From Pirellula sp. SH-Sr6A (GTDB taxonomy: Bacteria > Planctomycetota > Planctomycetia > Pirellulales > Pirellulaceae): DNA of 64,000 bases. A program made the position numbers and the translations under genes. How positions within the stretch are numbered: position 1 is the first letter of the stretch; every line of letters begins with the position of its first letter. The stretch lies in the NCBI RefSeq assembly GCF_001610875.1, contig NZ_CP011272.1, positions 6,429,988-6,493,987 on the forward strand, given 5' to 3'. Under the pieces are notes generated by a model. That model saw only the letters and a list, made by a program, of their open reading frames with translations, did not search any database and was not told the DNA's origin. Of the stretch, positions 1,283-37,412 are shown in pieces.

Positions 1283-1828
1283 CTAGGCCGGATTCATCGC
1301 TGGTTCTTGACGAGCTGCCGCGATTTCTTCGTGGGTGTAGTACTTCTGGGTCGGGTACTGCATCAGGACCGTTTGGGTATCGCCTCCCCGGTGGAACAAG
1401 ACTTCCCACAAACCCGGTGTCTTGCTTGTCCACATGCTTCCGCGGCGCCAGAGATCGGCAACGGATTTTGTATGCCCTATTACCCGCGAAAGGATCTTAG
1501 ACTGGCTCGGCTCACGTAACCACGCCTCGATCGACTTCCATTTGTCGCTTTTCCATGTGGCTCCAGTTCGCGCCATGCTCACAGCACTTTTAAGCTGCTC
1601 ATCGGTCGCCAGCTCGGGCCATCGCAGGTAGACCAACACGGCATGGCAATCTTCTTCGAGCCATTGCGGAAACTTGGCGAACTGAGGGATCGAACAGAAC
1701 TCGGAATACCGCTCTTGGCTCAAGTGATACCCACCGTGCCCCGCGGTCGAGTGAAACACAATCCCTGGAGCATGCTCGTGCTGTGACTGGGATGGCCCCC
1801 ACGGGGTTTCAATGATTTGCTGCCTCAT
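1283..1828 (-). CDS. DUF7007-like protein
   Basis: A 181-aa protein. Seen: TPWG at residues 8-11 and GIVFHSTAGHGG at about 22-33, followed by a Trp/Glu/Asp-rich segment (WLEEDCHAV); this layout matches DUF7007-type proteins of phages and mobile elements, whose activity is unknown. The ATG at 1828 follows a GAGGA ribosome site at 9-base spacing. The last three codons are part of the GGCC motif that serves the next gene. The family call is from memory of the motif, not from a search. Confidence 0.65.
   Translation of the reverse strand: MRQQIIETPWGPSQSQHEHAPGIVFHSTAGHGGYHLSQERYSEFCSIPQFAKFPQWLEEDCHAVLVYLRWPELATDEQLKSAVSMARTGATWKSDKWKSIEAWLREPSQSKILSRVIGHTKSVADLWRRGSMWTSKTPGLWEVLFHRGGDTQTVLMQYPTQKYYTHEEIAAARQEPAMNPA
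1286..1311 (-). promoter_or_regulatory. GGCC bipartite motif upstream of 867-1247
   Basis: On the gene strand: GTCAAGAA (1311-1304), 14 bases, then GGCC (1289-1286) followed by TAGTTGG. The core overlaps the last codons (CCG GCC TAG) of the 1283-1828 gene. The start codon is 39 bases downstream. One of a recurrent set in this element; the promoter role is inferred. Confidence 0.5.
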
Positions 1829-1865
1829 CGCCTATGAATCCTCTGACTAAAAACCTTGTGAATGT

Positions 1866-2531
1866 CTACTCTCGCTCACCACGCACGGTCGGATCCGTGC
1901 GCAGCTTTCCATCGCTTCCAAAGAGGACCTGCAACTGCGAGTCAATCCTCTGCGCGATCTCGAATGGATGGTTCGTTACACATTGGCCATCCGCTTTTTG
2001 GTTTTCGTAATCTTCCGATTCGAACTCGCGGATGTACGAAAGCAGCATTTCGATGTCATCTCGAAAGGATGCGGGATCGGCCGCCACTTGCTCTTCCGCG
2101 AACACGCGAGTTGGGATAGTGAAATACACCCCGCGACGCGCCCCAGTCTCTCCTGCGTAGAAAATCCAGAATTCGGCAAGACGCCACCCGATGTGCTTAA
2201 GATCCAAGGTCACTGGCGAGTCAAGCGAACCCGCGAAATCACCGCACCCCTCGTGCAGGTAGAAGCTCCCTGCCTTTGCAGGTTGAAACGTAGTGTCTCT
2301 GAAATTGATTCGAGATCGAACAAAGGCGATCCTTACATACTCATCACCCTTTTTGACCCATTCACCCAGCATCGGCGGCATTCCGTGAAAGCCCTCCCAG
2401 CATTTCTGAATCAATTCGATAGTCTTCTGTGTATCGCTCTGGCTTGGAGAGCGAACACCATGAGCGACTTTAACGCTCTGGGTGATTTCCCGATGCAGAC
2501 GGTCAATGTCTAAACGTTCAATGGTTGTCAC
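1866..2531 (-). CDS. phage hypothetical protein
   Basis: A 221-aa protein read from GTG at 2531 (VTTIERLDID), preceded by AAGGG at about 10 bases; an ATG at 2576, which would overlap the previous gene's stop, is the alternative. Mixed alpha/beta; residues about 110-150 are rich in Gly and aromatic residues. No recognised domain. It follows the 2564-2887 gene with a small gap and is probably co-transcribed with it. Confidence 0.65.
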   Translation of the reverse strand: MTTIERLDIDRLHREITQSVKVAHGVRSPSQSDTQKTIELIQKCWEGFHGMPPMLGEWVKKGDEYVRIAFVRSRINFRDTTFQPAKAGSFYLHEGCGDFAGSLDSPVTLDLKHIGWRLAEFWIFYAGETGARRGVYFTIPTRVFAEEQVAADPASFRDDIEMLLSYIREFESEDYENQKADGQCVTNHPFEIAQRIDSQLQVLFGSDGKLRTDPTVRGERE

Positions 2532-2563
2532 TGGTTGGTTCCCTTGAAGTAGATGGATGCCGA

Positions 2564-2887
2564 TCACACAAAGCATCCGAGGTGTTGTCCCCTCGGAATA
2601 CAGCCGCAGCACTCGCGGCTTTCGCAGTTCTTGCACTCCCAATCCTCATCGGGACCAGCCGTCATCAGCTCGTACTGGATCGGTTGCGAGGGAATCCGCG
2701 GCGTGTCCATCGTCACGGGATACCTGGCCTGAAGCCGCCACAGCACTCTCTCCGCTGTACCGCGATCGGTGAACAGATAGGGATTGCCATCCCTCCTAAA
2801 CGAGGGCAAGTCATTGCCCTCCCAAAGACAAGCCAGCGTGTCGGACATCAAACCGATCTGACGTTCAATGAAATACTTGATAGCCAT
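2564..2887 (-). CDS. small protein with Cys-rich C-terminus
   Basis: A 107-aa protein. Seen: strong ribosome site GAGGGAG before the ATG; a Cys cluster near the C-terminus (CKNCESRECCGC) that could bind zinc or form an iron-sulfur site; the middle resembles small phage proteins with a WEGNDLPSF segment. The GGCC motif lies 34 bases upstream. Function unknown; metal binding is inference from Cys spacing. Confidence 0.7.
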   Translation of the reverse strand: MAIKYFIERQIGLMSDTLACLWEGNDLPSFRRDGNPYLFTDRGTAERVLWRLQARYPVTMDTPRIPSQPIQYELMTAGPDEDWECKNCESRECCGCIPRGQHLGCFV

Positions 2888-2920
2888 GTCGAACTCCCTC
2901 TTGATTGAGACACCTAACTA

Positions 2921-2946
2921 GGCCGGGTTTCGACAGGATTTGAATC
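2921..2946 (-). promoter_or_regulatory. GGCC bipartite motif upstream of 2564-2887
   Basis: Gene strand: GATTCAAA (2946-2939), 14 bases, GGCC (2924-2921) followed by TAGTTAG. Intergenic, not in any coding frame, 34 bases before the ATG. Because this copy is non-coding, its similarity to the copies at 1286 and 6439 argues for a DNA or RNA function rather than shared protein ends. Confidence 0.55.
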
Positions 2947-2956
2947 GAACTGGCGA

Positions 2957-3472
2957 TCAGGACGCGACGGGCTCGAACCGCCTAGGGATCATCAGCAGGG
3001 TCATCAAAGCATCAAGCTCCCCAGCCGACTCAAATTCCGGCAACGCAATGCTGGTTCCGTCCTCGGCTTGTAACGAGAAGTTTCTCCCGACACACGCGAT
3101 CCGAAGCCCCATAGGATTCGGCTTGGATTTCGCCGTCACAACTGTGTTGGCGTCGTCCGCGGCAAGGTCGACATCGAACTCTTCGAAGTTCATTTCCAGC
3201 CAGCTATCATCGAGATCCCGATACTCCATAGGAGCGATCGGCTTCAATCTCGCATGCTGTTCAAGTTCAGCGAGCATCGAAAGCGCGTCCATCTCGACAT
3301 GGGCAAAGACTTCGCACGCAAACCCAGTCCATTCGACTTTGGTTTTTGCATATTCGATCACGCAGCTTTTGCGGCTCGGCTTCTTAACCGGCACGAGCAC
3401 TCGATCTACGCCGTCTCGGACGCAATAGCGTTTGCCGCCGAACTCGCCACCAACAAAGAAATACGACCGCAT
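2957..3472 (-). CDS. phage hypothetical protein
   Basis: A 171-aa protein starting at the ATG at 3472, which overlaps the TGA of the 3475-3669 gene region and has GGTGATTGAGG just upstream. Acidic centre (residues about 90-110: MNFEEFDVDLAADD). No recognised domain. Translation is probably coupled to the preceding small gene. Confidence 0.65.
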   Translation of the reverse strand: MRSYFFVGGEFGGKRYCVRDGVDRVLVPVKKPSRKSCVIEYAKTKVEWTGFACEVFAHVEMDALSMLAELEQHARLKPIAPMEYRDLDDSWLEMNFEEFDVDLAADDANTVVTAKSKPNPMGLRIACVGRNFSLQAEDGTSIALPEFESAGELDALMTLLMIPRRFEPVAS

Positions 3473-3474
3473 CC

Positions 3475-3669
3475 TCAATCACCATACTTTCGAACTATTT
3501 GCTTGGCGACCGACCGCTGCTTTTCGGTCATCGTCACCTTGTTTTTGAAAAGAACCGACTCAATAAACTGAGCCTCCCATCGCGTCACGCACTGAGCGTG
3601 CTCATCGACATCTTTAAGAACCGCACGCAGCTCCTCGTCGGAGGCTTTTTCCAACCAATCGAGACTCAT
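3475..3669 (-). CDS. small phage protein, DNA-replication-associated type
   Basis: A 64-aa protein (MSLDWLEKASDEELR start). Seen: acidic N-terminal helix, then a WEAQFIESV segment and a C-terminal TEKQRSVAKQIVRKY helix. This helix pattern is common in short phage and plasmid proteins near primase-like or replication genes; the role is not known. The start at 3669 was preferred over a longer reading because it follows a normal hydrophilic N-terminus. It overlaps the 3614-3853 gene by 56 bases. Confidence 0.6.
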   Translation of the reverse strand: MSLDWLEKASDEELRAVLKDVDEHAQCVTRWEAQFIESVLFKNKVTMTEKQRSVAKQIVRKYGD

Positions 3670-3853
3670 CCTTGCTAATCTCCCTGACCAAATCGAGATC
3701 GTTTTCGCTAAAAGAAAACTGGCCGTTGTCGCGATAGGTCCACTCGCCAACCGACCAATGAAACGGAGCGGTCTTTGTACCGGTCAGCATCTCGGCCGGT
3801 CCAACCGCTTTCCCGTCGCGCCGCACGTAGAACCTTCCTTCAACTAGCAGCAT
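3614..3853 (-). CDS. phage hypothetical protein
   Basis: A 79-aa protein. Seen: GRFYVRRDGKAVGP at residues 6-19, a beta-hairpin-like motif that recurs in small phage proteins (YVRRDGxxxGP). The ATG at 3853 overlaps the end of the 3840-4133 gene by 14 bases, typical of tight phage packing. The C-terminal part overlaps the next gene in another frame, so the exact end is less certain than the start. Confidence 0.55.
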   Translation of the reverse strand: MLLVEGRFYVRRDGKAVGPAEMLTGTKTAPFHWSVGEWTYRDNGQFSFSENDLDLVREISKDESRLVGKSLRRGAACGS

Positions 3854-4133
3854 TTTGTGTTTCTTCCTTAGGCAGAGACAGCACGTCCGCGATGGGCTCC
3901 ACAGCCGCGATCACTTGCTTGAGCTTCTCAACGGCTTCGTCTATTCGATCTCGGTTCTTAGAGAGCTCTGCTTGCCTGATGAACAGAAGATGAACGTCCG
4001 CCTGGACCCCTACCGGGACAGGTCCTTTTTCGTACTTGTTTCCTGTCACTATCATGGCCCACTCTTCGCGGGACATCCGAACGATCAAGTCATCATTCCC
4101 ATACGTTTTTGGGACCTTCCCGATTACATTCAT
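3840..4133 (-). CDS. phage hypothetical protein
   Basis: A 97-aa protein with a C-terminal predicted helical pair (residues about 55-85, RQAELSKNRDRIDEAVEKLKQ). The ATG follows AAGGAG at good spacing. The GGCC motif with its upstream box lies 36 bases before the start. No family recognised. Confidence 0.7.
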   Translation of the reverse strand: MNVIGKVPKTYGNDDLIVRMSREEWAMIVTGNKYEKGPVPVGVQADVHLLFIRQAELSKNRDRIDEAVEKLKQVIAAVEPIADVLSLPKEETQNAAS

Positions 4134-4168
4134 GCCGAACTCCTTATGTGAGGCTTGTCACACAAAAA

Positions 4169-4196
4169 GGCCGGAAACGCGATCGATTTGTTTCAC
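4169..4196 (-). promoter_or_regulatory. GGCC bipartite motif upstream of 3840-4133
   Basis: Gene strand: GTGAAACAAA (4196-4187), 14 bases, TTCC-GGCC-TTTTTGTG. Purely intergenic and 36 bases upstream of the ATG. One of the clearest copies; the core plus flanks TTCCGGCCTTTT is shared with the copies at 10103 and 37046. Confidence 0.55.
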
Positions 4197-6390: not shown

Positions 6391-6435
6391 AATGAAATCT
6401 CCTCGCGGATGGATTGGTTTGAATAGGACTCCCAA

Positions 6436-6987
6436 CTAGGCCGAACACTCGACAGTTTTGTCGAGCGATTGTTTCAGCCACTCGAGGTTCGCATCGATCC
6501 CTTCGACGTAGGCATCCCACGCGGCGATCACTTCTGGAGAATCGGCTTCGAAACACTTCTTCTCAGCGCCGATCGTGTAGTGGTAAGCCTCACGGCGAAC
6601 ATAGCCGGAGAAAGGAGTCTCGAGCAACCAACGCGATTCGCCATTCGCCGCTTGGAAGTAAACCCCGCGACTGGTCACTGCGAGCCACTCGACATCGCGT
6701 TCCACCGCACCACCGGTGACCACGAAACATCCGCCCTCTTTGTGGTACACCGACTTCTTGGGAGCGCACCACACCCCGTTCTTGTTGGTTGTCGTCTTGC
6801 AGGTTCGCCACCCGTGCTTGGCATGGCGTTCGACCGCCAGTTCACACCGCCCCCGATTGCGTCCGCCGATGGGATAATTCTCGATCGTAGCCACGGGATG
6901 AACGTCAAGCGTCTTGATCACTTCCATCGCAGAAGCGATTGCCGTTTTGATTTCATCGATCGTGAGCTTGCAGGTTGTGTTCGTCAT
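6436..6987 (-). CDS. phage hypothetical protein
   Basis: A 183-aa protein from ATG 6987 (MTNTTCKLTIDEI), preceded by GAAGGTGA. Seen: N-terminal helix, then a beta-rich body with GWRTCKTTTNKNGVW and YFQAANGESRWLLE; possibly a small beta-barrel or substrate-binding fold, not identifiable. Ends in CSA-stop, the codons of which form part of the next GGCC motif. It carries its own GGCC core 44 bases upstream. Confidence 0.65.
   Translation of the reverse strand: MTNTTCKLTIDEIKTAIASAMEVIKTLDVHPVATIENYPIGGRNRGRCELAVERHAKHGWRTCKTTTNKNGVWCAPKKSVYHKEGGCFVVTGGAVERDVEWLAVTSRGVYFQAANGESRWLLETPFSGYVRREAYHYTIGAEKKCFEADSPEVIAAWDAYVEGIDANLEWLKQSLDKTVECSA
6439..6464 (-). promoter_or_regulatory. GGCC bipartite motif upstream of 6004-6390
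   Basis: Gene strand: TCGACAAA (6464-6457), 14 bases, GGCC (6442-6439) then TAGTTGGGAG. Core and TAG coincide with the end of the 6436-6987 reading frame; 49 bases to the ATG. Confidence 0.45.
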
Positions 6988-7030
6988 GGAATCACCTTCG
7001 TTTGAGTGTTGAATTGGATCTATCAAGAAA

Positions 7031-7056
7031 GGCCGGAAACTCGGCCAATTCATCGC
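7031..7056 (-). promoter_or_regulatory. GGCC motif upstream of 6436-6987 (weak box)
   Basis: Gene strand: core TTTCC-GGCC-TTTCTTG at 7034-7031 region, 44 bases before the ATG. The position of the upstream box (7056-7049) reads GCGATGAA, a poor match, so only the core half is well conserved here. Confidence 0.4.
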
Positions 7057-7927: not shown

Positions 7928-7982
7928 GATTGCCTCTTTGGGAAGTGGATTCTTTGAACGTCTGCCGTCTTACAAAGAAATG

Positions 7983-8008
7983 AGCCCGACACACGCGATG
8001 TTTGAACG
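7983..8008 (-). promoter_or_regulatory. GGCT variant of bipartite motif upstream of 7655-7927
   Basis: Gene strand: CGTTCAAA (8008-8001), 14 bases, GGCT (7986-7983), then CATTTCTTTGTAAG. The box and the 14-base spacing match the GGCC copies although the core has one change; 56 bases to the ATG. Confidence 0.45.
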
Positions 8009-10063: not shown

Positions 10064-10102
10064 TTTGTTTCTCCGATGTGTTGTGTTTGCTACACAAGAA
10101 AA

Positions 10103-10140
10103 GGCCGGAACGAGCGTCAAGTCGTGCGTCTTTTTGTGAC
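10103..10140 (-). promoter_or_regulatory. GGCC motif upstream of 9761-10063, longer spacing
   Basis: Gene strand: GTCACAAA (10140-10133), 26 bases, TTCC-GGCC-TTTTCTTGTG. Both halves are near-perfect but the gap is 12 bases longer than in the other copies, about one helical turn. Confidence 0.45.
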
Positions 10141-10656: not shown

Positions 10657-10702
10657 GGCTGGAACTTTGGTGTGTGGAGGCAATACCGACTACACCAAGA
10701 AA

Positions 10703-10728
10703 GGCCTGGAAAATCAAAAAATTTGCAG
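10703..10728 (-). promoter_or_regulatory. GGCC bipartite motif upstream of 10144-10656
   Basis: Gene strand: CTGCAAAT (10728-10721), 14 bases, GGCC (10706-10703) then TTTCTTGGTG. Lies in the divergent gap with the plus-strand GHKL gene. Confidence 0.45.
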
Positions 10729-10832
10729 CGTTTTTGCAATTCGCCGCTCTAAGGAAATCGATGAATTGCGAACGTAGCCATTGTTCAGCCAGCTTGGAGA
10801 ACGTGGTTGTGTACTGCCAATCTGGTGAAAGG

Positions 10833-10864
10833 TTGTCCAGCCTCCTAAAAGACGTTGCTAAAAT
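10833..10864 (+). promoter_or_regulatory. possible sigma70-type promoter for the GHKL gene
   Basis: TTGTCC at 10833-10838 and TGCTAAAAT ending at 10864, an extended -10 (TGnTAAAAT), with a 20-base gap, longer than ideal. The start codon is about 80 bases downstream. Tentative; it is the best match in the divergent gap. Confidence 0.25.
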
Positions 10865-10946
10865 GTGGTCGTCGGCCCGAGAAACGCAGAGGCGAACGAC
10901 TTCGCTTTCGATACCCCTACCGTCCAAACCAAAGGCACAGATCAAC

Positions 10947-13007
10947 ATGCCCTTTCAGAGTTTCGATTACGCAAACTACATCAAGCAGAACCCACTTTCA
11001 GCAAATTCCCGGTTCTTACCGCTTTTTGAGGCAATCGAGAACGCGTTCAATGCCATCGAAGAAAGGTATCGACTGACGGGCAAAGAGTCTGGTGGTCTTG
11101 TAACCATCACAATAGTTCGAGAGGCGGTTCAGCCTGTACTCAAGCTTGAAGAAACAAAAATCTCGCCGCCCCCGATAATAGGTTTCCAGATAAAAGACAA
11201 CGGAATTGGCTTCCGGGAAGCAAACTGGCGAGCATTCAAAGAAGTCTACACGACACACAAGCTCTCTTTTGGCGGCAAGGGCGTCGGCAGACTCACGTAT
11301 CTTCTAGCATTTCAAGAAGCGAGCGTTGAAAGTTACTTCGCCGAAGGAGACAAAAAGTACGCTAGGTCATTCAGTATCGAACCTACGCGCAGTGGGCCGA
11401 CGGAGAGTTTGCTGAAAGAAGTGGAGTCAACAGACGAATTTACTATTGTGAGTCTGAACCAGATGAGGCCAATGCTACGCGAGAAGTGCCCAAAAAACAT
11501 TTCTGCCGTTGCAAATCAGATCGCTCTTCATTTCTTCAAACGTCTTTCCATTTCAGGAGGCATTAGATGCGAACTGCACGACGCATTCGATGGTCAAATT
11601 ATTGACCTTCACACGTTTTTCCGAGAAGAAATGCTGCTTTCAGACAAAAGAAGCCGTTTCACACTTCGCAACGAAGAATTCGTTGTCACTCAAACTAAAT
11701 GCAAGACAAAGGCGGCGAACCGCCATCAAATAATGTTGTGTGCAAACGGAAGAGTAGTTTCCACGCACGCCGTACCTGCCGGCTTCATCCAGTCAAAAGC
11801 AAAGCTTGATGATGGCAATGATCAGTTCTTCTACGTGGCACTTGTGGAGTCTCAGTTGCTCGACAGCAATTGTAGCAACGACAGAACGCGTTTCCTTCTT
11901 GATGAGGAGGACGACGACGTCAATTCACCGAGCCTTCTTGAGTCATCGACACCTTCAATCAGCTCCATTCTCACCGAAGTGGGAAAGCTCTGCAAAAAAT
12001 TCCTACGCAAGGAGGTTGCGCCGCTAGAGGTAATTCACCAACGTCGAATCGAGGAGCTCTGCCGAAGCAATATGAATTTCAAACCACTCTTGAAGCAGAA
12101 ACAAAAAGAACTATTCGAGCTTCCATACGATTTGTCTGATTCCGAATTAGAGAAGTCTGTTTGGAGAATCTATTCACAATGGAAATACGAGATCCGAACG
12201 CGATTTTCTTCGATGACTAAGTCTGTTCGCGACAACAACAACAAATGGATGGAGTACCGCGATAGGTATCGGTCGACACTCCATGAACTTAGCCAAATGG
12301 CGATGCACGATCTAGCCGTGTATGTAACTGATCGTCGGGCTGTTCTTGACTTTCTTTGGGATCGTCTGAAGGCAACCGAAGACGGAAAATTTCGTGATGA
12401 AGCAGCGATACATGACATCTTCTTTCCGAGAAACACTGATTCGAATGACATCGCATGGGACGAGTCGAATCTATGGATAATTGACGAGAGATTGCTTTTT
12501 CAACAATACACTGCATCTGACTTGAACTGGAAAAAGGTCGGACTCGATGGAGTCGACTCGAACGACCGACCAGACGTATGTAGTAGTTACGATCGAGTCT
12601 TTGATGATACATTTGCCTTCACTGAAGGGTCGCAGCCCTATTCCTCCGCAACACTCGTTGAATTCAAGAGACCAGAACGAGAGTCTTACACCGAGCTCGA
12701 AAACCCCTACGCGCAGGTTGTGAGGTATATCAATCAAATCCGAAAGGCAGGATCCATTACGAAAGACGGTCACACGTTTCGAATGGACAAGAGCCAGCCA
12801 ATTCACGCTTACGTCGTCTGTCATCTTGTCGAGAAACTTCTAGAACACTTAAACGCAGTCGACTTTACTGAGTCGGCCGATGGACAAGGGTTTGTAGTTC
12901 ACCTACCAAAGCTAAATGCAATTATCTACTTTGCCACATTTGAAAAGTTGATCGCTGACGCAAGGAAGCGAAATCGCGCCTTCTTCGATAAGTTGGGACT
13001 GGAGTAA
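10947..13007 (+). CDS. GHKL ATPase with PD-(D/E)XK nuclease signature
   Basis: A 686-aa protein, the only large plus-strand gene of the element. Seen: GHKL ATPase N-box FEAIENAFNAIE (residues 28-38), G1 box KDNGIG (83-88), G2 box GGKGVGR (109-115), as in MutL, Hsp90 and MORC ATPases. A helical middle follows. Near the C-terminus RPDV (541-544) and VEFKRP (571-576) form a PD-x28-ExK pair, the PD-(D/E)XK nuclease signature. Known: prokaryotic MORC/MutL-like GHKL ATPases occur with restriction-type modules. Inferred: ATP-gated nuclease used in conflict or defence. Start at 10947 is where the conserved domain begins; an in-frame extension to 10674 looks non-coding. Codon use is more A-rich than its neighbours, fitting acquisition as cargo. 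Confidence 0.85.
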   Translation: MPFQSFDYANYIKQNPLSANSRFLPLFEAIENAFNAIEERYRLTGKESGGLVTITIVREAVQPVLKLEETKISPPPIIGFQIKDNGIGFREANWRAFKEVYTTHKLSFGGKGVGRLTYLLAFQEASVESYFAEGDKKYARSFSIEPTRSGPTESLLKEVESTDEFTIVSLNQMRPMLREKCPKNISAVANQIALHFFKRLSISGGIRCELHDAFDGQIIDLHTFFREEMLLSDKRSRFTLRNEEFVVTQTKCKTKAANRHQIMLCANGRVVSTHAVPAGFIQSKAKLDDGNDQFFYVALVESQLLDSNCSNDRTRFLLDEEDDDVNSPSLLESSTPSISSILTEVGKLCKKFLRKEVAPLEVIHQRRIEELCRSNMNFKPLLKQKQKELFELPYDLSDSELEKSVWRIYSQWKYEIRTRFSSMTKSVRDNNNKWMEYRDRYRSTLHELSQMAMHDLAVYVTDRRAVLDFLWDRLKATEDGKFRDEAAIHDIFFPRNTDSNDIAWDESNLWIIDERLLFQQYTASDLNWKKVGLDGVDSNDRPDVCSSYDRVFDDTFAFTEGSQPYSSATLVEFKRPERESYTELENPYAQVVRYINQIRKAGSITKDGHTFRMDKSQPIHAYVVCHLVEKLLEHLNAVDFTESADGQGFVVHLPKLNAIIYFATFEKLIADARKRNRAFFDKLGLE

Positions 13008-13196: not shown

Positions 13197-13958
13197 CTAG
13201 ACGGTTACTGATTCACCTTGGATGAAGGCGAGCATCTCAGTTCCCTCAGCATAGCTCAAGCGAGCGAGCGACTTTTCGAATCGAGCGATTGCCTTTTCAC
13301 GGGTCACGAAGCACTCGATGGCCATCATCGCGTCGTAGTGTTTCTTCCAAGACTTAAGGCGAGCTCTGTTGGCGCTGCCGGTGGACTTGACGGCACGTCG
13401 AACAGGCTTGCTTTCGCCTTCGAGAAGTTCTTTGAGCTGGCGTCGTGCGTAGTACGCGAACGCTGCGTCCTTCCCAACCTTCTCACCGGCTTCGCGAGGC
13501 GAAAGTCCTTGAGCAAGGTACTCGATCACTTGGAACTCATCGTCCCCAAGTTGGGCTGCGACAGCCATCACACCGGAGAGGTTCTCGCGACCAATCATGA
13601 TTTCCACTGCAGTCCGATCATCGCAACCAACATCAAAACCTTCCCCGATCGCCGAGGTTCGGTCGGCCGAACGACGGAGCGACTTCACGTACTCGACTTG
13701 CTTGTAAACGTTGTTGCGGCAAACGCAGAACAACCAGGCCTTGAAGCCGTTCCACTCATCGAAGTCGGTCGTCGCCACGCCAGTCGCGACTTGCATCAGC
13801 ACTTCCTGCAGGACGTCTTCGGCATCGATCCGAGCGGAGTACTTGGTACCGAGAAAATGACTGATGATCGTCTTGCATTCGGAACTGATGCTGACGAGCA
13901 GGCTGCTGATAGCGAATTGGGAACCATTCTTTGCGGACACGAGCAATTCCATCGACAT
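13197..13958 (-). CDS. ECF-like sigma factor
   Basis: A 253-aa protein of the sigma70 family, ECF group. Seen: region 2 with DAEDVLQEVLMQVA (residues 45-58) and FKAWLFCVCRNNVYKQ (72-87); a region 4 helix-turn-helix with LAQGLSPREAGEKVGK at about 148-163; then about 75 extra residues rich in Lys and Arg that standard ECF factors (about 180-200 aa) lack. Known: such factors direct RNA polymerase to bipartite promoters. Inferred: it may drive the GGCC bipartite promoters found across this element. It has its own sigma70-type promoter and sits alone between a terminator upstream and a convergent gene downstream. Confidence 0.85.
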   Translation of the reverse strand: MSMELLVSAKNGSQFAISSLLVSISSECKTIISHFLGTKYSARIDAEDVLQEVLMQVATGVATTDFDEWNGFKAWLFCVCRNNVYKQVEYVKSLRRSADRTSAIGEGFDVGCDDRTAVEIMIGRENLSGVMAVAAQLGDDEFQVIEYLAQGLSPREAGEKVGKDAAFAYYARRQLKELLEGESKPVRRAVKSTGSANRARLKSWKKHYDAMMAIECFVTREKAIARFEKSLARLSYAEGTEMLAFIQGESVTV

Positions 13959-13990: not shown

Positions 13991-14008
13991 CGCGAATCAA
14001 CGTTCGCG
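13991..14008. promoter_or_regulatory. inverted repeat in the sigma-gene leader
   Basis: CGCGAA-TCAACG-TTCGCG, a perfect 6-bp inverted repeat with a 6-base centre, just downstream of the predicted transcription start and 33 bases before the sigma start codon. It could be an operator or a leader hairpin. Intervening AT-rich DNA is otherwise unremarkable. Confidence 0.4.
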
Positions 14009-14018: not shown

Positions 14019-14048
14019 ATTATACGCAAATAGACGTCTAATTGTCTA
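14019..14048 (-). promoter_or_regulatory. sigma70-type promoter of the sigma-factor gene
   Basis: Gene strand: TAGACA (14048-14043), 18-base spacer, TATAAT (14024-14019), a perfect -10. The spacer contains the palindrome TAGACGTCTA next to the -35, a possible operator. The leader to the ATG at 13958 is about 55 bases. Confidence 0.65.
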
Positions 14049-15418: not shown

Positions 15419-15703
15419 TCAGCTAACATGTAAACAAACCTGTTCAGGCCGTTTCTTGGCGACGATCGAGTGATGGCAACTCCGGTGCATAATGTCGATG
15501 TTCTCAGGAGAGTTGTTTCCCGCGTCATCATCATGATGCCGGATCAAAACAGAATCTCTCCATTGGTAGAACTCTTTGGGATCGATCGCCTCACCGCAAT
15601 GTGAACATCGAACGCAGAACTTGCGAATGAAGAACTCCAAGAACTCGTTTCGCCTTCTCAACCTCACCGACATCGCGGTACTTCTGTTCAAAGCCTTCGC
15701 CAT
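15419..15703 (-). CDS. HNH endonuclease
   Basis: A 94-aa protein. Seen: CSHCGE zinc knuckle (C33, C36), LIRHHDDD with the catalytic H56/H57 region, then NIDIMHRSCHHS with N68 and a second metal pair (C76, H77). Known: short HNH proteins next to terminase assist DNA packaging cleavage in many phages. It follows the large terminase by 51 bases, as expected for that role. A GGCC motif with a good box precedes it, inside the end of the terminase gene. Confidence 0.85.
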   Translation of the reverse strand: MAKALNRSTAMSVRLRRRNEFLEFFIRKFCVRCSHCGEAIDPKEFYQWRDSVLIRHHDDDAGNNSPENIDIMHRSCHHSIVAKKRPEQVCLHVS

Positions 15704-15747
15704 TGCGACACCTTTCGCGGAGTGAACACATCCTATCCACAGGAACA

Positions 15748-15773
15748 GGCCGCGTTAGCGACTGTTTTTGACG
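15748..15773 (-). promoter_or_regulatory. GGCC bipartite motif upstream of the HNH gene
   Basis: Gene strand: CGTCAAAA (15773-15766), 14 bases, GGCC (15751-15748), 45 bases before the HNH start. It lies across the end of the terminase gene, so it could allow HNH expression apart from terminase. Confidence 0.5.
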
Positions 15774-17431
15774 TACCAATCGTTGTACTTGGTCGAACAC
15801 TCGGCCGTATGCGAATGACAAACCTCACCCTCTGGCGCGAGCCGTTCGCATTCATGGCAGCAAAACCCAGCTTCGGTGAACGCCGGCCGATCGCAGGCCG
15901 GGTTCTGGCATTTGCCCTCCTTGAACCGAGGCTTGCCAGCCGCCTTGCTAGAAACGACCACCGACTGCGACTTGGCCGAAGGATTCACCAACTCCAGGTA
16001 GGCCCCAGCGAACGCATCCGACTGATCCTTGAACGGACCACTCGGGAACACTTCCATCTCGTCGAACACTTCGGTAAGCCAAGGCCCTTCGATTGCGTAA
16101 ACGTCCCCGTTCTCGATGGCGATCGAAAGGGGCTCGGCATGCACCTCCTTCGAGTCCTTCGCTCGTACTCCATAGACACGATGCCCACGAAGCCGATTGA
16201 TCGTGATCTCGGCAACACGCTTCCCTGAGGAGGCCCCTTCAATTTCAAAACACGTCCACAGCTTCGAGAATCCAAACTCGATCTCGTCGAGCTTGACGTT
16301 CATCTCGATGGCAGCTTCGACATCACCGGCCGTCATCCGCTTGCGAATCATGTGCAGCAGGTAGAACTTGCTTCCTTTCCGGCCGACCAAGGCCCCAGCC
16401 GTGTAAGCTCCATCCTCGACGCTGGCAGCCCGATCCCAGAACCGACAAACCGCGTCAAACTCAAACGGCGCTTCATCCCGTCGAATGATCTTGATGTTGG
16501 AGCACTTGAAGAACTCCCCGTCCTTTCTGATCGGACGCTGCCCCAACTGGGCCGAACTGTTGGAAGCCCCGAGCGACCGTTCCAACTTCGTCACCTTCTT
16601 CTCATCGAGCAGTTGCGGGTAGAGCAGCTCCCCCTTCTCCGTCCGCCAGTCCCCTCCGAAGCCTCGGTCCTCCATCTTGTATTCGGGATCGTATCGCATC
16701 GGAAGCATGACCTGATGCCAAGGCTTTTCTTCGCCGGCTCTTTCCGCGAACTCATTCTCCCGCTCAAACATGCCGCACGGATCGTCCACGTGCACTCGCT
16801 GCATTCCAACGACATGCCGCACCCCTTTGGCCACGCCCCGGGTGGAAAGCGTGTCGCGGTACCAATCGTTGAACGCCTTCCGCTCGTTCGCGTTCTTCGA
16901 CTTCTCTACCGACAACGGGTCGTCGATGATGACATACTTCGGGTGATCCCCCGTCGCTCGCCCCGATCGCGTCGTGCTCAATCGCCAACCTCCAGCCGTG
17001 AGCCGGTAGAACGTCTTGGCATCGTGACCAAAGGCAACCTGAACCTTGTCACCCCACCGGTCGATATACCAAGGGTCCGCAATAAGCTCTCGGCATGCGA
17101 CCGCATCCCGAACGGTCAAGTCTTGGTTGTACGTCACGCAGAGGAACGTCGCATCCGGCTCAACCGTCCAAACCCAAGCCGGCCAAAGGACCGAGAGTAG
17201 CGTCGACTTGGTGCACCCAGGAGGCAGATTGACCATGAGTCGATCGACCTTTCCGGCTTGAACAGCCTGGAGATGGTCACAAACAACCTGAATGTGATTA
17301 CCCCAAACGAAGCCGGGGATAAGGATCTTCGCAGCATGTCGCACGAACTCAGCAAACTCGAGCTCGCAATGACGGCGAATGATCTTATCCAGATTACTGA
17401 GCGAGCGACGAACGGTCACTTCGCCGCTCAT
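15755..17431 (-). CDS. terL: terminase large subunit with Cys-rich tail
   Basis: A 558-aa DNA-packaging motor: ATPase plus RNase-H-like nuclease that cuts concatemers and drives DNA into the capsid. Seen: Walker A PPGCTKST (70-77), Walker B YVIIDD (166-171), nuclease acid in RFWDRAASVEDG (about 343), second acid in CFEIEG, C-terminal DQSDAFAGAY. GAGGGG ribosome site at 6 bases. Odd: about 65 residues follow the nuclease domain with a Cys/His cluster (CQNPACDRP, CCHECE, CHSHTAEC), a likely zinc-binding tail that terminases normally lack. Start overlaps the small subunit by 38 bases. Confidence 0.93.
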   Translation of the reverse strand: MSGEVTVRRSLSNLDKIIRRHCELEFAEFVRHAAKILIPGFVWGNHIQVVCDHLQAVQAGKVDRLMVNLPPGCTKSTLLSVLWPAWVWTVEPDATFLCVTYNQDLTVRDAVACRELIADPWYIDRWGDKVQVAFGHDAKTFYRLTAGGWRLSTTRSGRATGDHPKYVIIDDPLSVEKSKNANERKAFNDWYRDTLSTRGVAKGVRHVVGMQRVHVDDPCGMFERENEFAERAGEEKPWHQVMLPMRYDPEYKMEDRGFGGDWRTEKGELLYPQLLDEKKVTKLERSLGASNSSAQLGQRPIRKDGEFFKCSNIKIIRRDEAPFEFDAVCRFWDRAASVEDGAYTAGALVGRKGSKFYLLHMIRKRMTAGDVEAAIEMNVKLDEIEFGFSKLWTCFEIEGASSGKRVAEITINRLRGHRVYGVRAKDSKEVHAEPLSIAIENGDVYAIEGPWLTEVFDEMEVFPSGPFKDQSDAFAGAYLELVNPSAKSQSVVVSSKAAGKPRFKEGKCQNPACDRPAFTEAGFCCHECERLAPEGEVCHSHTAECSTKYNDWYVKNSR

Positions 17432-18764: not shown

Positions 18765-18812
18765 CTGATAGCCCCTTGTCGTGAATGTGTCGTTTCTGCC
18801 AACACAAAAACA

Positions 18813-18838
18813 AGCCGTTTCGCGCACCAATTTGGACA
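18813..18838 (-). promoter_or_regulatory. GGCT variant of bipartite motif upstream of 18462-18764
   Basis: Gene strand: TGTCCAAA (18838-18831), 14 bases, GGCT (18816-18813), followed by TGTTTTTGTG, which matches the TTTTTGTG tail of the copy at 4169. 49 bases to the ATG. Confidence 0.45.
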
Positions 18839-24384: not shown

Positions 24385-24922
24385 GAAGATGCCTCTTGCT
24401 TGGAATCGTGATGGTTTTGTTTTGGAGCAACTTCGTGACCACTTCATCAAGCTGCTCGGATGTCACTGTGCAATAGTGAGCCGAAATCCCGAACGATTTA
24501 ACGGGAGCAATTAAGCCAAAGTCCTTGAGGCTTTCGATCACATTCGGGATCCATTCGTCCAAGATCGGCGTCGAGATTTCCGGCGACTTCAAATAAGCTG
24601 CCAACGCCGGCTCTAGCTCACCAAACAACAAGCCCTTGACCTTTGCAACGGCAACAACGTGTACCGCTCGGTACCGCGGTAATTTCATCCGACGAATCTC
24701 GTAACCCTCTGGGTAAACGGTAAACGACTCGTCCTCCATCTCAATCCAACCTCCACGCTTGCCCAAGTGAAGAACGGCGATCACCGACTTGGCAACCGAC
24801 TCGGTCGCTACAAACGAGATCATCCCAATGTAGGAACGATCGAAGATGTTGGTTCCCGCCGTTGTGAACCGATCGACATCCACGGTCAATTCAAGATCAC
24901 TTGATTTAACAGTCGCCTTCAT
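24374..24922 (-). CDS. hypothetical protein in helicase-methyltransferase operon
   Basis: A 182-aa mixed alpha/beta protein overlapping the methyltransferase gene by 17 bases and the helicase gene by 11, so translationally coupled to both. Seen: N-terminal beta-rich half with YIGMISFVATES and KRGGWIEMEDES; C-terminal helices. No known domain. The tight packing implies a shared job with its neighbours. Confidence 0.7.
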   Translation of the reverse strand: MKATVKSSDLELTVDVDRFTTAGTNIFDRSYIGMISFVATESVAKSVIAVLHLGKRGGWIEMEDESFTVYPEGYEIRRMKLPRYRAVHVVAVAKVKGLLFGELEPALAAYLKSPEISTPILDEWIPNVIESLKDFGLIAPVKSFGISAHYCTVTSEQLDEVVTKLLQNKTITIPSKRHLHAG

Positions 24923-25952
24923 CGCTCACCTCTTCCTCTTCGTTCTCGGGTGGTTGTTCTGCTTCGTTCTCAATCTTGTCCTCCAGCGTCGTGATTCCGG
25001 TTTCGTCCGCAATCTTGATCGTGAGCTTGATCTGTTCGGTCTTGTGCACCTTGACCTTTTTCTCTTCCTTCACGGTCTGCTCGGTGACGATCTTACGCGT
25101 CGAACCTCGAACCACGTGCGGCTTCTCGCCTGGTGGCTCGACGACTCCATCCAGCATTCCGGAAGCCAGCAGCAACGCGATATGCCCCTTGGACAGCCTC
25201 ATCGGAGGCACAAGCTCTCTCGCAGCTTCTGCATGGTTTAGCTTGAGTATTTCATCTGCCTTGGAACCGCGTATCGCCTGTTCGATCTCCTGAGCCGTAT
25301 AGAATCGTTTTTCAACTCGAACGCATCCACCATCCATCGCGGAGTACGGCGGTATCAAATCGACCGATTTGCAGCAGTACGTGTCATCGAACAGGTTGTA
25401 ATCGGCACGCGCCTCGAACTTCCGGCGAACGCCGAAAATCAAGTGCTCTTGGAACTTTGTTTCGAAGGGAAACGGAGCGCATCGCAAACGGTCAAAGTAT
25501 CGAGTCAACACTTCGAAAGTCCGCCAACTTGTCGCCGTTCTTTCCGGCAACACGGCAACCAGAATCGACCCAGGGGATGCCTGGTTCGCGATCTTCTGTA
25601 GGAACCGCCATTCAACACGACCACCCCCACCGAGTTCGTCATCGAAAGGCGGGTTCACGTAGAAGATCGACGCATTGCCATAGCTCGGCGATTCGAGCCA
25701 ATCGACTGGACCGAAGCAATTTCGGATCCGAGTCTTGGCAACAGCATGACGACCTTCGTCCATCTCCGCCGCGTACACGTTCGCTTTATCGATCCCCATC
25801 TCCTCTGCAATCGCCACAACTGCATCACCGGCACCACAGCACGGATCGAAGATCGTGGCTTTTGAACTGCATTCTATTTTGGCCGCGATATGCGGGACCG
25901 CTTGTAGATCGAGCGGGTAATACCCACTCTTGGCTTGTGCTTCTAAACGCAT
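24906..25952 (-). CDS. DUF6094 N6-adenine-type DNA methyltransferase
   Basis: A 348-aa class I methyltransferase. Seen: MRLEAQAKSGYYPLD N-terminal signature of the DUF6094 group, AdoMet motif I DPCCGAGDA (36-44), catalytic motif IV NPPF (101-104), which marks amino-methylation of adenine (or cytosine N4). The C-terminal third is a charged Glu/Lys-rich tail. Known: DUF6094 enzymes occur in mobile elements beside SNF2-type helicases, as here. First gene of the leftward operon that continues through the helicase and the ParB genes; a bipartite motif lies 33 bases upstream. Confidence 0.88.
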   Translation of the reverse strand: MRLEAQAKSGYYPLDLQAVPHIAAKIECSSKATIFDPCCGAGDAVVAIAEEMGIDKANVYAAEMDEGRHAVAKTRIRNCFGPVDWLESPSYGNASIFYVNPPFDDELGGGGRVEWRFLQKIANQASPGSILVAVLPERTATSWRTFEVLTRYFDRLRCAPFPFETKFQEHLIFGVRRKFEARADYNLFDDTYCCKSVDLIPPYSAMDGGCVRVEKRFYTAQEIEQAIRGSKADEILKLNHAEAARELVPPMRLSKGHIALLLASGMLDGVVEPPGEKPHVVRGSTRKIVTEQTVKEEKKVKVHKTEQIKLTIKIADETGITTLEDKIENEAEQPPENEEEEVSDEGDC

Positions 25953-25984
25953 TGAAATCTCCTGTTGAAGGGCACACGGAAACG

Positions 25985-26010
25985 GGCCTGACGCGTCGAG
26001 AATTTGGTTT
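25985..26010 (-). promoter_or_regulatory. GGCC bipartite motif upstream of the methyltransferase operon
   Basis: Gene strand: AAACCAAA (26010-26003), 14 bases, GGCC (25988-25985) then CGTTTCCGTGTG, 33 bases before the ATG. It would control the methyltransferase-helicase-ParB operon. Confidence 0.45.
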
Positions 26011-26283: not shown

Positions 26284-26306
26284 CAGCAAATCCTTTCAAC
26301 TAGAAA

Positions 26307-26332
26307 GGCCGGATCCGACCTTGTGTTGAATC
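26307..26332 (-). promoter_or_regulatory. GGCC bipartite motif upstream of 26035-26283
   Basis: Gene strand: GATTCAAC (26332-26325), 14 bases, GGCC (26310-26307) then TTTCTAG, 24 bases before the ATG. Confidence 0.45.
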
Positions 26333-30962: not shown

Positions 30963-32009
30963 CTACAGCCTGGCTTTAGCCGACGCGATCGCAGCGAGTA
31001 CTTCATCTCGATCTTCAGCTCGGACATGCTCCAAGTCTCGCTCGATTTCGATGATAGTCAACGGGTCGGTAGCTGCTTTGAGCTCCAAGAGCAAAGCCTG
31101 CTTCGAAATGCCTTCGGGAGCGACGAATTCCGTGTCATGGATCACCTCAGTACTGGTGGACTCCGCGTTCCGTCGTTTCAATTCCTCTTTTAAGTCGTCC
31201 GCCGACCGAACAGTTCGCACGCTGGGGGAGTTGATGACATTGCTGTTACGATCACCGTAGTCGTTGCGATCTTCCTTCTCGATCGCCGCTTGGGCCTCCG
31301 CGGAGATTGGGAGCCATTTGCTTAGCCGCTTGAACGTGGTTTTTTTCCACATCTCAAACTCTTTGTGCGGAAATCTCGGATCCCAAGGGGTGTCGTTACT
31401 CTTCTTGGCTACGAAAGCCTGCCACCCGGGTGAACCATCACGAATCGCGAGGATGTCCGCGCGAGACATCACTTCCGCTCGCTCGGTACCATCTTTGAAC
31501 ACAACCAGTGAGTAAGCCGCAAAGACTTCTCCGGCCTCTTTCGGTGCCTTCGCATCTGTCCTAAGGAAGTGCGGGACGTGTTCTTTGAGCTGCCCCTTAT
31601 TCCAAACGAAGATGTCTCCACGCCGGATCACATCGGCAGCCACGTGCGACACCTTCCCCGATCGCAGAACCAACTCCGCGATCCCTTTGTAATCGAGCTG
31701 ATAAGTGCACGTCCGCCCGTAGGGAATCAAGTGCGCTCGCCTACCGTCCGGCTCGAGGCCGATCGCAGCAAGATCCAGCACGGAGCCGATGAAGCTCTGC
31801 CGTGTGCACAAAGCGAGTTTTGGATTCTTGTTGAGCTGATTGATTACCACGCGCACGAAGAACTCAGGCTTCATGTGCGAAGGCAGAATTTGCAATAATT
31901 TCCTGGAAGTGTCATCCGACTGGAGATCCTCCAATAGGATCATAGCCTCCGACCTTTTCGGACTTGCACCACTGACATGCTCGGTACGTTCTTCAGCTGC
32001 TGCTGTCAT
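30963..32009 (-). CDS. recT: RecT-family single-strand annealing protein
   Basis: A 348-aa protein that anneals complementary single strands during phage recombination. Seen: KLLQILPSHMKPEFFVRVVI, DLAAIGLEPDGRRAHLIPYG, QLDYKGIAELVLRSG, EFEMWKKTTFKRLSKWLP, all conserved blocks of the RecT family. A charged C-terminal extension (about residues 255-348) is longer than usual. It follows the YqaJ exonuclease gene, overlapping it by 4 bases, the standard exonuclease-annealase pair. Confidence 0.93.
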   Translation of the reverse strand: MTAAAEERTEHVSGASPKRSEAMILLEDLQSDDTSRKLLQILPSHMKPEFFVRVVINQLNKNPKLALCTRQSFIGSVLDLAAIGLEPDGRRAHLIPYGRTCTYQLDYKGIAELVLRSGKVSHVAADVIRRGDIFVWNKGQLKEHVPHFLRTDAKAPKEAGEVFAAYSLVVFKDGTERAEVMSRADILAIRDGSPGWQAFVAKKSNDTPWDPRFPHKEFEMWKKTTFKRLSKWLPISAEAQAAIEKEDRNDYGDRNSNVINSPSVRTVRSADDLKEELKRRNAESTSTEVIHDTEFVAPEGISKQALLLELKAATDPLTIIEIERDLEHVRAEDRDEVLAAIASAKARL

Positions 32010-33308: not shown

Positions 33309-33953
33309 TCATACAAAGAGGCCGGAATGGGCAGCGGTTTGTGACATAGATTCCAGTTTTTTTAACAACAAAAAGTCAGGACGGTATTTTCTTGATTGTT
33401 TGCTATTGAGAACCCAATCCACTTCGACTCCCTTCTCTTCGCAGTCTGATAGCGTCAAAGACTTCACTTCCAAGCTCTCCACACGATCCCAGTAATCGTC
33501 TTGATCTGAGACCGGAAAGATAAATGTTCGAGCGGGAACGGTGCGCTTCGCAAGAGATCTTTCGTTCCAATGGAACAAAAAGAAGCACGTTGCGCCGAAG
33601 CGGCTTCTGCGGAGCATGTGTTTCAACTGCCGCGCCCGCGGCCCGCGAGTCTCCGCTCGATATTTGTTCCAAGGAAACGATGCGGAAGAGCAAACCTTTG
33701 CGTCAAAGATAACGTGCCTAAAAGTATGCGGTAGGCCTTTGCTTTCGCCTTCGAGGCACCGGTACATGCCTTCGAAGTCCGGAAGAGACTGTATGAGCTG
33801 CGTCTCCATTGCCCCTGGGGTTGTATGCGACGGTCTCACAGTTGCTTGGACCCCATAACGACCGATCACCGCGAATTTGATTTCTTCGTACCAGGCACTT
33901 TGGTCCAGCACGAGTTGCTCAAATTCTTTGCTTGTCAATTTGCTCGGAACCAT
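33309..33953 (-). CDS. PD-(D/E)XK nuclease, Holliday-junction-resolvase-like
   Basis: A 214-aa protein. Seen: a helical N-terminus, HVIFDAKVCSSASFPW with an FDAK core of the PD-(D/E)XK kind, RQLKHMLRRSRFGATCFFLFHW resembling the RecU/HJR helix and strand, and RTFIFPVSD. Known: phage resolvases of this group cut recombination intermediates and branched packaging DNA. The first catalytic acid cannot be assigned with certainty. It lies between DnaB and the RecT-YqaJ pair. Confidence 0.75.
   Translation of the reverse strand: MVPSKLTSKEFEQLVLDQSAWYEEIKFAVIGRYGVQATVRPSHTTPGAMETQLIQSLPDFEGMYRCLEGESKGLPHTFRHVIFDAKVCSSASFPWNKYRAETRGPRARQLKHMLRRSRFGATCFFLFHWNERSLAKRTVPARTFIFPVSDQDDYWDRVESLEVKSLTLSDCEEKGVEVDWVLNSKQSRKYRPDFLLLKKLESMSQTAAHSGLFV
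33320..33345 (-). promoter_or_regulatory. GGCC bipartite motif upstream of 32900-33283
   Basis: Gene strand: GTCACAAA (33345-33338), 14 bases, TTCC-GGCC-TCTTTG (33323-33320), 37 bases before the ATG. Both boxes are near-perfect. Would start the recombination unit. Confidence 0.55.
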
Positions 33954-36667: not shown

Positions 36668-36721
36668 ACGAACAACCACCAGGATCTAGTCGGAAGAAAG
36701 ACACGCCACCAGAGTGGGGCG

Positions 36722-36958
36722 CTACGCTCGGAACAAACCGCCAGCGACAATAGCGACTAAGAAAAAAGCAAACAACAAGACGCCGATGCCAACCAGTACT
36801 AGCTTGTCTTCGGAACCTAGTTCGTACCAACGGTTTGGAAGGTCTTGGCTAGTCCGAGAATCGATGAATGACTCGTTGATACGAGATCGATCCATTTTGC
36901 GAGCAGAGTCAACTGCTTCGTCTTCGGCTGAGCAGGATTGCTCAAAGAGATTCCTCAT
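36722..36958 (-). CDS. small C-terminal membrane protein
   Basis: A 78-aa protein. Seen: soluble charged N-terminal half and one hydrophobic helix at about residues 53-73 (LVLVGIGVLLFAFFLVAIVAGG). GGAG ribosome site at about 7 bases. A tail-anchored or holin-like small membrane protein; function unknown. Lies just upstream of the replication genes. Confidence 0.6.
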   Translation of the reverse strand: MRNLFEQSCSAEDEAVDSARKMDRSRINESFIDSRTSQDLPNRWYELGSEDKLVLVGIGVLLFAFFLVAIVAGGLFRA

Positions 36959-37045
36959 CTGTCACTCCATAGCCACAGCTTTAAGCGGCTGGTCGCTGTT
37001 CCGTTTCCATTTGTTAGGTGCGAGATCAACTCGCTCACCCTAAAA

Positions 37046-37071
37046 GGCCGGAAGCATGTTGCGTTTGTGAC
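37046..37071 (-). promoter_or_regulatory. GGCC bipartite motif upstream of 36722-36958
   Basis: Gene strand: GTCACAAA (37071-37064), 14 bases, TTCC-GGCC-TTTTAG (37049-37046). The annotated gene starts 88 bases away; a 9-codon leader ATG lies 36 bases away, the distance typical of the set. Confidence 0.55.
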
Positions 37072-37158
37072 AGACGAACGAAAAGTTTTTTTGCCGAACC
37101 AGTGCTGGTATCTCGCGCGATCTAGTAGATTCTCTTACCTAACTAAGAAGAAAAACAT

Positions 37159-37353
37159 CTAGCGATAATGTTCCGCCCACGCGGGCAGACCCCCTCTATC
37201 CCCCAATACCGGGATGAGTGGCCCGCGTGATGGTCTAGCGACAACGTCCAAGCCCTTTCGCGCGCAGTTCGCATTATCTTTTTTTACGTCGCGATGCTTG
37301 CCGTCCCCACGACGGACTTTCTGGCCCGTCGATCGGCGAGGAAAGAATCTCAC
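37159..37353 (-). CDS. possible small basic protein, GTG start
   Basis: A 64-aa reading frame rich in Arg and Lys (FPRRSTGQKVRRGDGK). Weak ribosome site. Support comes from the GGCC motif whose core ends 34 bases upstream of the GTG, the usual distance. Could be a small DNA-binding protein or a chance frame. Confidence 0.3.
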   Translation of the reverse strand: MRFFPRRSTGQKVRRGDGKHRDVKKDNANCARKGLDVVARPSRGPLIPVLGDRGGLPAWAEHYR

Positions 37354-37386
37354 CAGACAGCGACAACAGATCGTCTACTAGAGATA

Positions 37387-37412
37387 GGCCGGAAAGAGGC
37401 AATTCTGTTACC
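37387..37412 (-). promoter_or_regulatory. GGCC motif upstream of 37159-37353
   Basis: Gene strand: GGTAACAG (37412-37405, partial match to the box), 14 bases, TTTCC-GGCC-TATC (37390-37387). Confidence 0.4.

Follow-up and report, generated by a model that had tools for sequence, protein, structure and literature searches.

A motif of about 34 nt, repeated on one strand of a 106-kb prophage of the planctomycete Pirellula sp. SH-Sr6A, is probably a phage class of promoter: host sigma-70 would start transcription of a phage gene for a sigma factor resembling those of the extracytoplasmic function (ECF) group, and this factor would read the motif. The basis is the DNA sequence itself, with about 20 copies on one strand, in a near-constant place before start codons and, in the DNA scanned, restricted to the prophage. 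The window analysed is a stretch of 64,000 nucleotides (G000:C1 6429988-6493987) from a one-contig genome of 6.53 Mb. It includes 38 kb of the prophage, of which two thirds lie outside; negative coordinates are positions left of the window. A preliminary description of this DNA had proposed a promoter class, distinct from those of sigma-70 and sigma-54, that forms a regulon across the element. The present analysis supports this proposal and adds a likely reader that the description did not include, the ECF-like phage sigma.

Taking the first G of GGCC as position 0, the 15 copies in the window (minus strand; Table 1) give a consensus of about CAAA-N11-TCCGGCC-T-N-TTT-NN-GTG. The third letter of the box, A, is the only one conserved in all 15 copies. 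Directly before GGCC the letters T, C and C are found in 11, 12 and 12 copies; after it there is a T at +4 (13/15), T at +6, +7 and +8 (12, 11 and 12 copies) and T and G at +12 and +13 (13 copies each). No further strongly conserved column lies between the motif and the start codon in these copies. The 15 cores listed in the preliminary description are all present at their positions on the minus strand, two of them (7983 and 18813) as GGCT. The claim of a box followed by exactly 14 bases holds for eight of the twelve copies concerned (2921, 4169, 6439, 7983, 18813, 25985, 33320 and 37046). It fails in the other four: the copy at 26307 has CAAC, those at 10703 and 15748 have their CAAA at a gap of 15 bases, and at 1286 there is no CAAA in this place. 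The bipartite view missed the downstream TnTTT/TG part (T at +4, TTT at +6 to +8 and TG at +12/+13), whose conservation equals that of the box. We rejected a recent duplication of the copies, as their flanks, judged by eye, are dissimilar.

The motif is genuine and lies above chance. Unsupervised motif discovery by expectation-maximisation (EM), using the 110-nt upstream regions of 109 minus-strand prophage genes, returned the same motif (caAa........g.ttCCGGCCT.TtT.g.TG) with a gain of 223. Shuffled sets reached 134-147 (n = 4, with half the starts) and, at equal effort, 151-153 (two shuffled sets) or 179-182 (two first-order Markov sets). EM assigned 32 upstream regions to the motif; 17 correspond to curated copies and most of the others look weak. 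A matrix built from the 15 window copies identifies, at a score of at least 13, 19 places in window positions 1-38000 (its own 15 included), six in the remaining 146 kb of the 184 kb scanned around it, and none in 280 kb of host DNA; each of the 25 is a minus-strand place within the prophage. Five of these places were left out, four inside genes (35397, 26618, 9557 and 1512) and one at the end of an IS21-like gene (-14472), and the remainder were used to build a 20-site matrix. At a score of at least 14, this finds 24 places on the minus strand of the prophage (the 20 training sites and four of the five omitted places) and none on the plus strand. In 480 kb of host DNA it finds none at this threshold, five at 13 or more and nine at 11 or more. 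In leave-one-out scoring, 17 of the 20 sites reach at least 14.0, and the lowest three score 13.8, 12.0 and 11.0.

Searches with patterns give a similar picture, provided that the pattern is long. Allowing up to two mismatches to the full pattern, there are seven matches in the whole genome, all of them on the minus strand of the prophage; each of 240 other genomes of the family has 0-3, the same range as reversed-pattern controls. A core-only scan with at most one mismatch gives ten genome matches (control 2), three of them elsewhere and seven in the prophage, the latter comprising six motif copies and a plus-strand match at 31530 that we take as chance. Exact CAAA-N14-GGC[CT] occurs in the whole window 13 times on the minus strand (eight listed copies, three more in the prophage and two outside it) and twice on the plus strand. 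With CAAA-N14-GGCYTNTT there are 18 matches in the genome, only four in the prophage, and eight for the reversed control; the short form alone is therefore not specific. In 20 first-order Markov simulations of the prophage the top score was 19.4, with an average of two places at 11 or more per run, so that the weak copies at 37376 and 15737 are not secure on their own.

The copies are placed in a consistent manner with respect to genes. In 19 of the 20 curated copies a start codon follows 27-67 nt after GG, and in the remaining one at 91 nt. Sixteen of the 19 starts are the gene caller's own and three belong to other open reading frames (ORFs) that it did not choose. The five curated copies outside the window keep this spacing (39, 44, 53, 56 and 67 nt). 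Of the 26 hits scoring at least 11, 16 fall within 70 nt of a called start, compared with 7.3% of random positions. An equal frequency inside genes or in the host chromosome, which the preliminary description had named as refuting a regulon, is not what these scans show. No site of at least 14 is found between -31.2 and -14.5 kb.

The element carrying the motif is, as judged from its sequence, the prophage of a temperate phage, integrated in a tRNA-Met gene. It is delimited by a 49-bp direct repeat, with a tyrosine integrase gene adjoining the left copy, and encodes terminase (15755-17431), portal, DnaB, major head protein, RecT and a RecE-like exonuclease; it is this gene content, together with the flanking repeat and integrase, which identifies it. 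In addition, inspection by eye alone points to a DnaN-like clamp gene.

Two prophage genes have matches to sigma factors and both score above the curated cut-offs of Pfam models and below those of NCBIfam. For gene 25, the matches are to Pfam Sigma70_r2 (8.7e-6; region 2, residues 41-87), PHROG 1740 (1e-9), NCBIfam sigma70-ECF (6.5e-8, residues 21-165) and a SigH-like PDB chain (E 5e-4 over residues 44-180). Weak NCBIfam matches to Planctomycetaceae-type sigmas accord with a planctomycete host. The product has the layout of ECF group IV (regions 2 and 4 and no region 3), with no region 3 family match shown; its region 4 is assigned from ECF-wide models and a helix-turn-helix (HTH) in a poor fold, without a Pfam region 4 match. 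Gene 25 and gene 77 share 28% identity over 102 residues. In a tree of 25 ECF rows (hits were admitted only with an ORF of 150-320 aa, and L059 was excluded), they form one clade with the sigma of a related phage contig, G625 (support 100/97). Neither gave a match at E<=0.01 in a tblastn search of 50,697 phage records, in which phiEco32 gp36 was not compared by itself.

The two sigma genes differ in their upstream regions. Gene 77 has a variant copy of the motif (CCGTCC) 53 nt before its start. Gene 25 has no copy; it is preceded instead by a sigma-70-like promoter, the only match of at least 11/12 in the 106-kb prophage, with none in 480 kb of host DNA. The spacer of this promoter contains a perfect palindrome, TAGACGTCTA, found once in the prophage. 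With one mismatch it occurs twice in the window, compared with 0.6 expected, and its role as an operator is therefore a guess. The gene 25 leader also includes a CGCGAACGTTGATTCGCG stem-loop (13991-14008), possibly a second operator or an RNA hairpin.

We propose the following sequence of events. The CAAA box would be a -35 element and (T)CCGGCC-T-N-TTT an (extended) -10, with transcription starting near the conserved GTG at +11 to +13. This would leave a leader of roughly 12-55 nt holding the ribosome site. Gene 25 would be kept silent in the lysogen, the palindrome within its promoter being perhaps the site of control. Once the prophage is induced, host sigma-70 polymerase would transcribe this gene, and the ECF-like sigma, on host core RNA polymerase, would then switch on many phage operons through the motif. 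Gene 77, with its variant copy, may form a second tier or a feedback loop. A stronger version, which we regard as rather doubtful, is that lysogeny is kept by the silence of one gene: the single operator-bearing sigma-70 promoter would gate the lytic programme, the second sigma would be a later tier, and the lytic genes would have no strong sigma-70 promoters of their own and would depend on the ECF-like sigma.

Other readings of the motif can be weighed against the same data. Multi-copy operators are frequent in prophages, and a DNA-binding regulator of the phage could use the motif as its operator or activator site beside host sigma-70 promoters; candidate HTH proteins are present, including one resembling MerR or excisionase at -1684..-1469. 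We nevertheless find this improbable. The site is asymmetric, its orientation and place are common to all copies, no conserved sigma-70 -10 adjoins it and the distance to the start codon seldom leaves space for another promoter. In window positions 1-38100, sigma-70-like sites are fewer than expected by chance (4 and 5 versus 9.0 and 9.0). This and the lack of any other conserved column up to the start codon make the motif a likelier promoter core than an adjacent operator.

If the motif is a promoter, its reader might be an alternative sigma of the host rather than of the phage. The phage sigma query does match 156 of 392 genomes at E<=0.001, its own included, and ECF-like genes are common in the phylum. 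A host regulon is not apparent, however, either in the 480 kb scanned at a score of at least 14 or in the full-pattern search, where the only matches are the seven prophage copies and the family genomes behave like controls; we give this reading little credence. A phage single-subunit RNA polymerase is highly improbable: although T7-type promoters are likewise long asymmetric sites recurring on one strand, the geometry here is -35/-10-like and Pfam found no polymerase in six of the seven prophage proteins of at least 700 aa, the seventh (1083 aa, -62453..-59202) lying outside the scan. Equally hard to credit is a function at the RNA level, as a leader, antitermination element or terminator. 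A hairpin is possible in a few copies (for example, 7046-7031) and 4 of 20 sites fold more than 2 standard deviations better than shuffles, but the mean single-site z is -0.74 and no pair forms in the consensus fold of the 20 sites when aligned. The energy of this fold is 0, but each of 100 column shuffles gives the same value, which leaves the test little power.

Three known promoter types were also compared with the motif columns and rejected. For sigma-54, the positions of GG-N10-GC are occupied by T and G in 13 of 15 copies each. Promoters of the sigma-28/FliA type have TAAA-N15-GCCGATAA; the spacing is shared (AAA-N15-GCC), but the first box base is C rather than T (T in 1/15) and TnTTT stands in place of GATAA. 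A sigma-70 reading of the motif is rejected by the column counts and by the sigma-70 scans.

Several observations weigh against the proposed phage sigma circuit. The link between sigma and motif is, as far as the sequences go, one of association, and the single-sequence AlphaFold model of the sigma is too poor to be of use (mean predicted local distance difference test score, pLDDT, of 41). CAAA/CGGCC differs from the textbook ECF AAC/CGT (PMC8103513). The part of the prophage left of -41.3 kb, which holds the tail genes, has no copy of at least 14, and none stands directly before the head-protein gene. Sigma-70 sites of at least 10/12 are not rarer in the prophage (5 in 106 kb, including that with 11/12) than in the host (19 in 480 kb). 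The tendency of weak boxes to accompany perfect cores (Fisher test, p=0.028; Spearman coefficient -0.52, p=0.019) speaks in favour of the circuit, but this anticorrelation is partly built in because sites were picked on total score. Related phages add further points: the copies in G625 reach just 7.4-8.6 and thereby fall short of the thresholds applied to the prophage; the sigma gene of G625, the orthologue of gene 77, has no copy; and the top match of this contig (15.2, position 38852) lies 494 nt before the next called plus-strand gene. A second relative, G407, has a sigma-like gene after its portal, yet its best motif score is 11.4 (25.5 kb of a 35.5-kb contig). Finally, the joint lack of sigma and motif in a third, the G299 prophage, favours the link but is a single comparison with a distant phage.

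Relatives were found among IMG/VR contigs using the head protein and portal as queries; terminase, sigma and DnaB found none there. Contig G624 is a close relative, with 81-96% DNA identity in blocks of 2.6-13.9 kb, integrase included. It retains the copy before gene 55 with a single change, in the spacer, has about 2 kb of other DNA in place of the copy at -41255, and shows three weaker matches (11.6-14.1) at other places. Contig G625 has diverged further, with identities of 46% for the portal, 68% for the head protein, 50% for gene 55 and 28% over 108 residues for gene 82. When the full matrix is applied upstream of its 34 plus-strand genes, genes 2, 10 and 8 are best, at 8.6, 8.3 and 7.4, and the next scores 3.6; their random-window P values are 0.0013, 0.0025 and 0.0043, not corrected for 34 tests, and the copies were scored only after they had been noticed by eye. 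The copy-bearing genes 82 and 55 have their orthologues in genes 2 and 8, with dissimilar flanks, so that weaker copies are retained at two of three comparable genes. On core columns alone gene 8 ranks sixth (P 0.08). At a score of at least 7 the contig has six plus-strand and no minus-strand matches.

The more distant relatives differ. The G299 prophage spans 61.5 kb and is bounded by 48-bp repeats, one of them at a tRNA-His; identities are 36% for its terminase and 22-32% for its tail genes. It shows no sigma match between the repeats and no motif place of at least 11. The same holds for contigs G233 (40.0 of 43.6 kb) and G211 (23.4 kb), whose terminases are 32% identical. The G407 sigma is on a long branch outside the clade of gene 25, gene 77 and the G625 sigma. 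This contig (G407:C812, L196-L197) has another repeated leader, TGCGCCTAATnAGCGCC..TGAGCCATTATAGTAGAGG, in four copies, detected with one pattern, on one strand (joined coordinates 7361, 18950, 19559 and 20267), one of which precedes the sigma-like gene; it is perhaps a promoter class of its own. EM gave gains of 119 versus 102-106 for shuffled sets (width 32) and 84 versus 67-72 (width 20) for G625, and 176 versus 124-132 for G407, with more starts on the real set in each case, and drifted to patterns that were ribosome-site-like or unclear. Motif scans detected no other many-copy phage: one match in each of two contigs in IMG/VR (none with a second pattern) and in each of three in GTDB contigs.

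Phage sigmas with their own promoters are described for phiEco32, 7-11 and SU10 (PMC4331800, PMC4281155), the SU10 sigma being annotated as ECF and stated to be 100% identical to phiEco32 gp36 (PMC4281155). In common with these phages, the prophage has a phage sigma and a repeated phage motif, and its sigma gene is preceded by a host sigma-70 promoter (here predicted from an 11/12 match); the SU10 sigma-gene promoter also has an 18-nt spacer, as in that of gene 25 (PMC4281155). A phage anti-sigma factor that shuts off host sigma is another trait of systems of this kind. However, phiEco32 and 7-11 have 6 and 10 listed copies of a one-box motif (tAATGTAtA / TGATGT), compared with about 20 copies here, and the 106-kb prophage is further set apart by its two sigma genes and by the G+C-rich core and -35-like box of its motif. 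A recognisable -35 is said to be lacking in phage ECF promoters (PMC5333181). Mix-and-match of box and core is described for ECF and phage sigma promoters, and the copies with poor boxes and near-perfect cores resemble this (PMC5333181); a rigid spacer is needed by ECF promoters (PMC6411747). Within the ECF group, ECF41 promoters are TGTCACA-n16-CGTC with a spacer of 16 +/- 1, and the ECF41 sigma has a C-terminal extension (PMC3426412). The copies at 33309 and 37035 read TGTCACA-N15-CGGC, and the gene 25 sigma also has a C-terminal tail; unlike ECF41, the other copies have no TGTCACA at that place and the -10 differs. ECF group IV promoters have AAC (-35) and CGT (-10) in place of CAAA and CGGCC; the gene 77 copy reads CCGTCC. 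Further traits of group IV are a linker of under 50 residues, positive autoregulation and an anti-sigma factor that is cotranscribed.

A literature search covering titles and abstract openings, and thin on subscription journals, found no such system for a planctomycete phage. The phage sigma cascades of phiEco32, 7-11 and SU10 are those of enterobacterial phages. Here one prophage shows the whole predicted circuit: a host-type promoter with a candidate operator, an ECF-like sigma and about 20 target promoters. Few genetic tools exist for the bacterial group of the host, for which this would provide a promoter set with its presumed cognate sigma. It also becomes possible to test in vitro whether an ECF factor recognises a G+C-rich -10, and changes in sigma and promoter can be traced jointly through the comparable sites of G624 and G625. 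The stronger version of the proposal, if true, would represent a sigma-gated lysis-lysogeny switch, using a sigma family known to date from this phage and its relatives alone.

Table 1. Coordinates of motif copies, sigma genes and associated features (start distances are from GG)
Feature	Coordinates	Strand	Details
Left attachment copy	start at -68105		49-bp direct repeat
Right attachment copy	37974..38022	.	49 bp, within tRNA-Met gene 37975-38049
Gene 77, second sigma gene	-13906..-13304		sigma/ECF model matches
Gene 25, ECF-like sigma factor gene	13197..13958	-	253 aa; region 2, region 4-like part, about 70-aa C-terminal tail
Sigma-70-like promoter of gene 25	14019..14048	-	TAGACA-N18-TATAAT, 11/12 match
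Perfect 10-bp palindrome	14031..14040	-	TAGACGTCTA; inside gene 25 promoter spacer; candidate operator
Terminator-like stem-loop	14155..14185	-	13 pairs, T-rich tail; just upstream of gene 25 promoter
Motif copy	1275..1308	-	overlaps stop of preceding gene; GTG at 42 nt
Motif copy	2910..2943	-	start at 37 nt
Motif copy, best-scoring	4158..4191	-	score 41.1; start at 39 nt
Motif copy	6428..6461	-	overlaps stop of preceding gene; ATG of 128 codons at 52 nt (ORF not chosen by caller)
Motif copy	7020..7053	-	perfect core, no CAAA; start at 47 nt
Motif copy, GGCT	7972..8005	-	start at 59 nt
Motif copy	10092..10125	-	perfect core, no CAAA at usual place; start at 43 nt
Motif copy	10692..10725	-	box at 15-base gap; start at 50 nt
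Motif copy	15737..15770	-	box at 15-base gap; 48 nt before HNH-like ORF 15419-15703; leave-one-out 12.0
Motif copy, GGCT	18802..18835	-	start at 52 nt; leave-one-out 13.8
Motif copy	25974..26007	-	36 nt before DUF6094-like methyltransferase gene 24906-25952
Motif copy	26296..26329	-	start at 27 nt
Motif copy	33309..33342	-	TGTCACAAA box; start at 40 nt; overlaps 3' end of preceding gene
Motif copy	37035..37068	-	CAAA-N14-GGCC; next start at 91 nt
Motif copy, weak	37376..37409	-	box AACAGA, core TTTCCGGCC; GTG of 64-codon ORF at 37 nt; leave-one-out 11.0

Some other features of the prophage were noted. The stretch -30900..-14400 has transposase-like genes (recognised by eye) and no motif place of at least 14 except one at its right edge; it has the appearance of inserted cargo. 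The region -7088..-1728 of the prophage encodes a Type ISP restriction-modification enzyme of 1786 aa. The portal protein (-11412..-9226, L023:8588-10774) has a C-terminal domain resembling 2'-5' RNA ligase/2H phosphoesterase (residues 576-673, E 1.9e-11), which gives a weak match, below cut-off, to the anti-CBASS protein Acb1 (E 0.0047); the portal relatives in L180 (G625) and G407 also align across this domain. Lastly, a 748-aa gene on the plus strand (10761-13007), in an otherwise mostly minus-strand region, has no Pfam match, and its product was recognised by eye as a GHKL-type ATPase.

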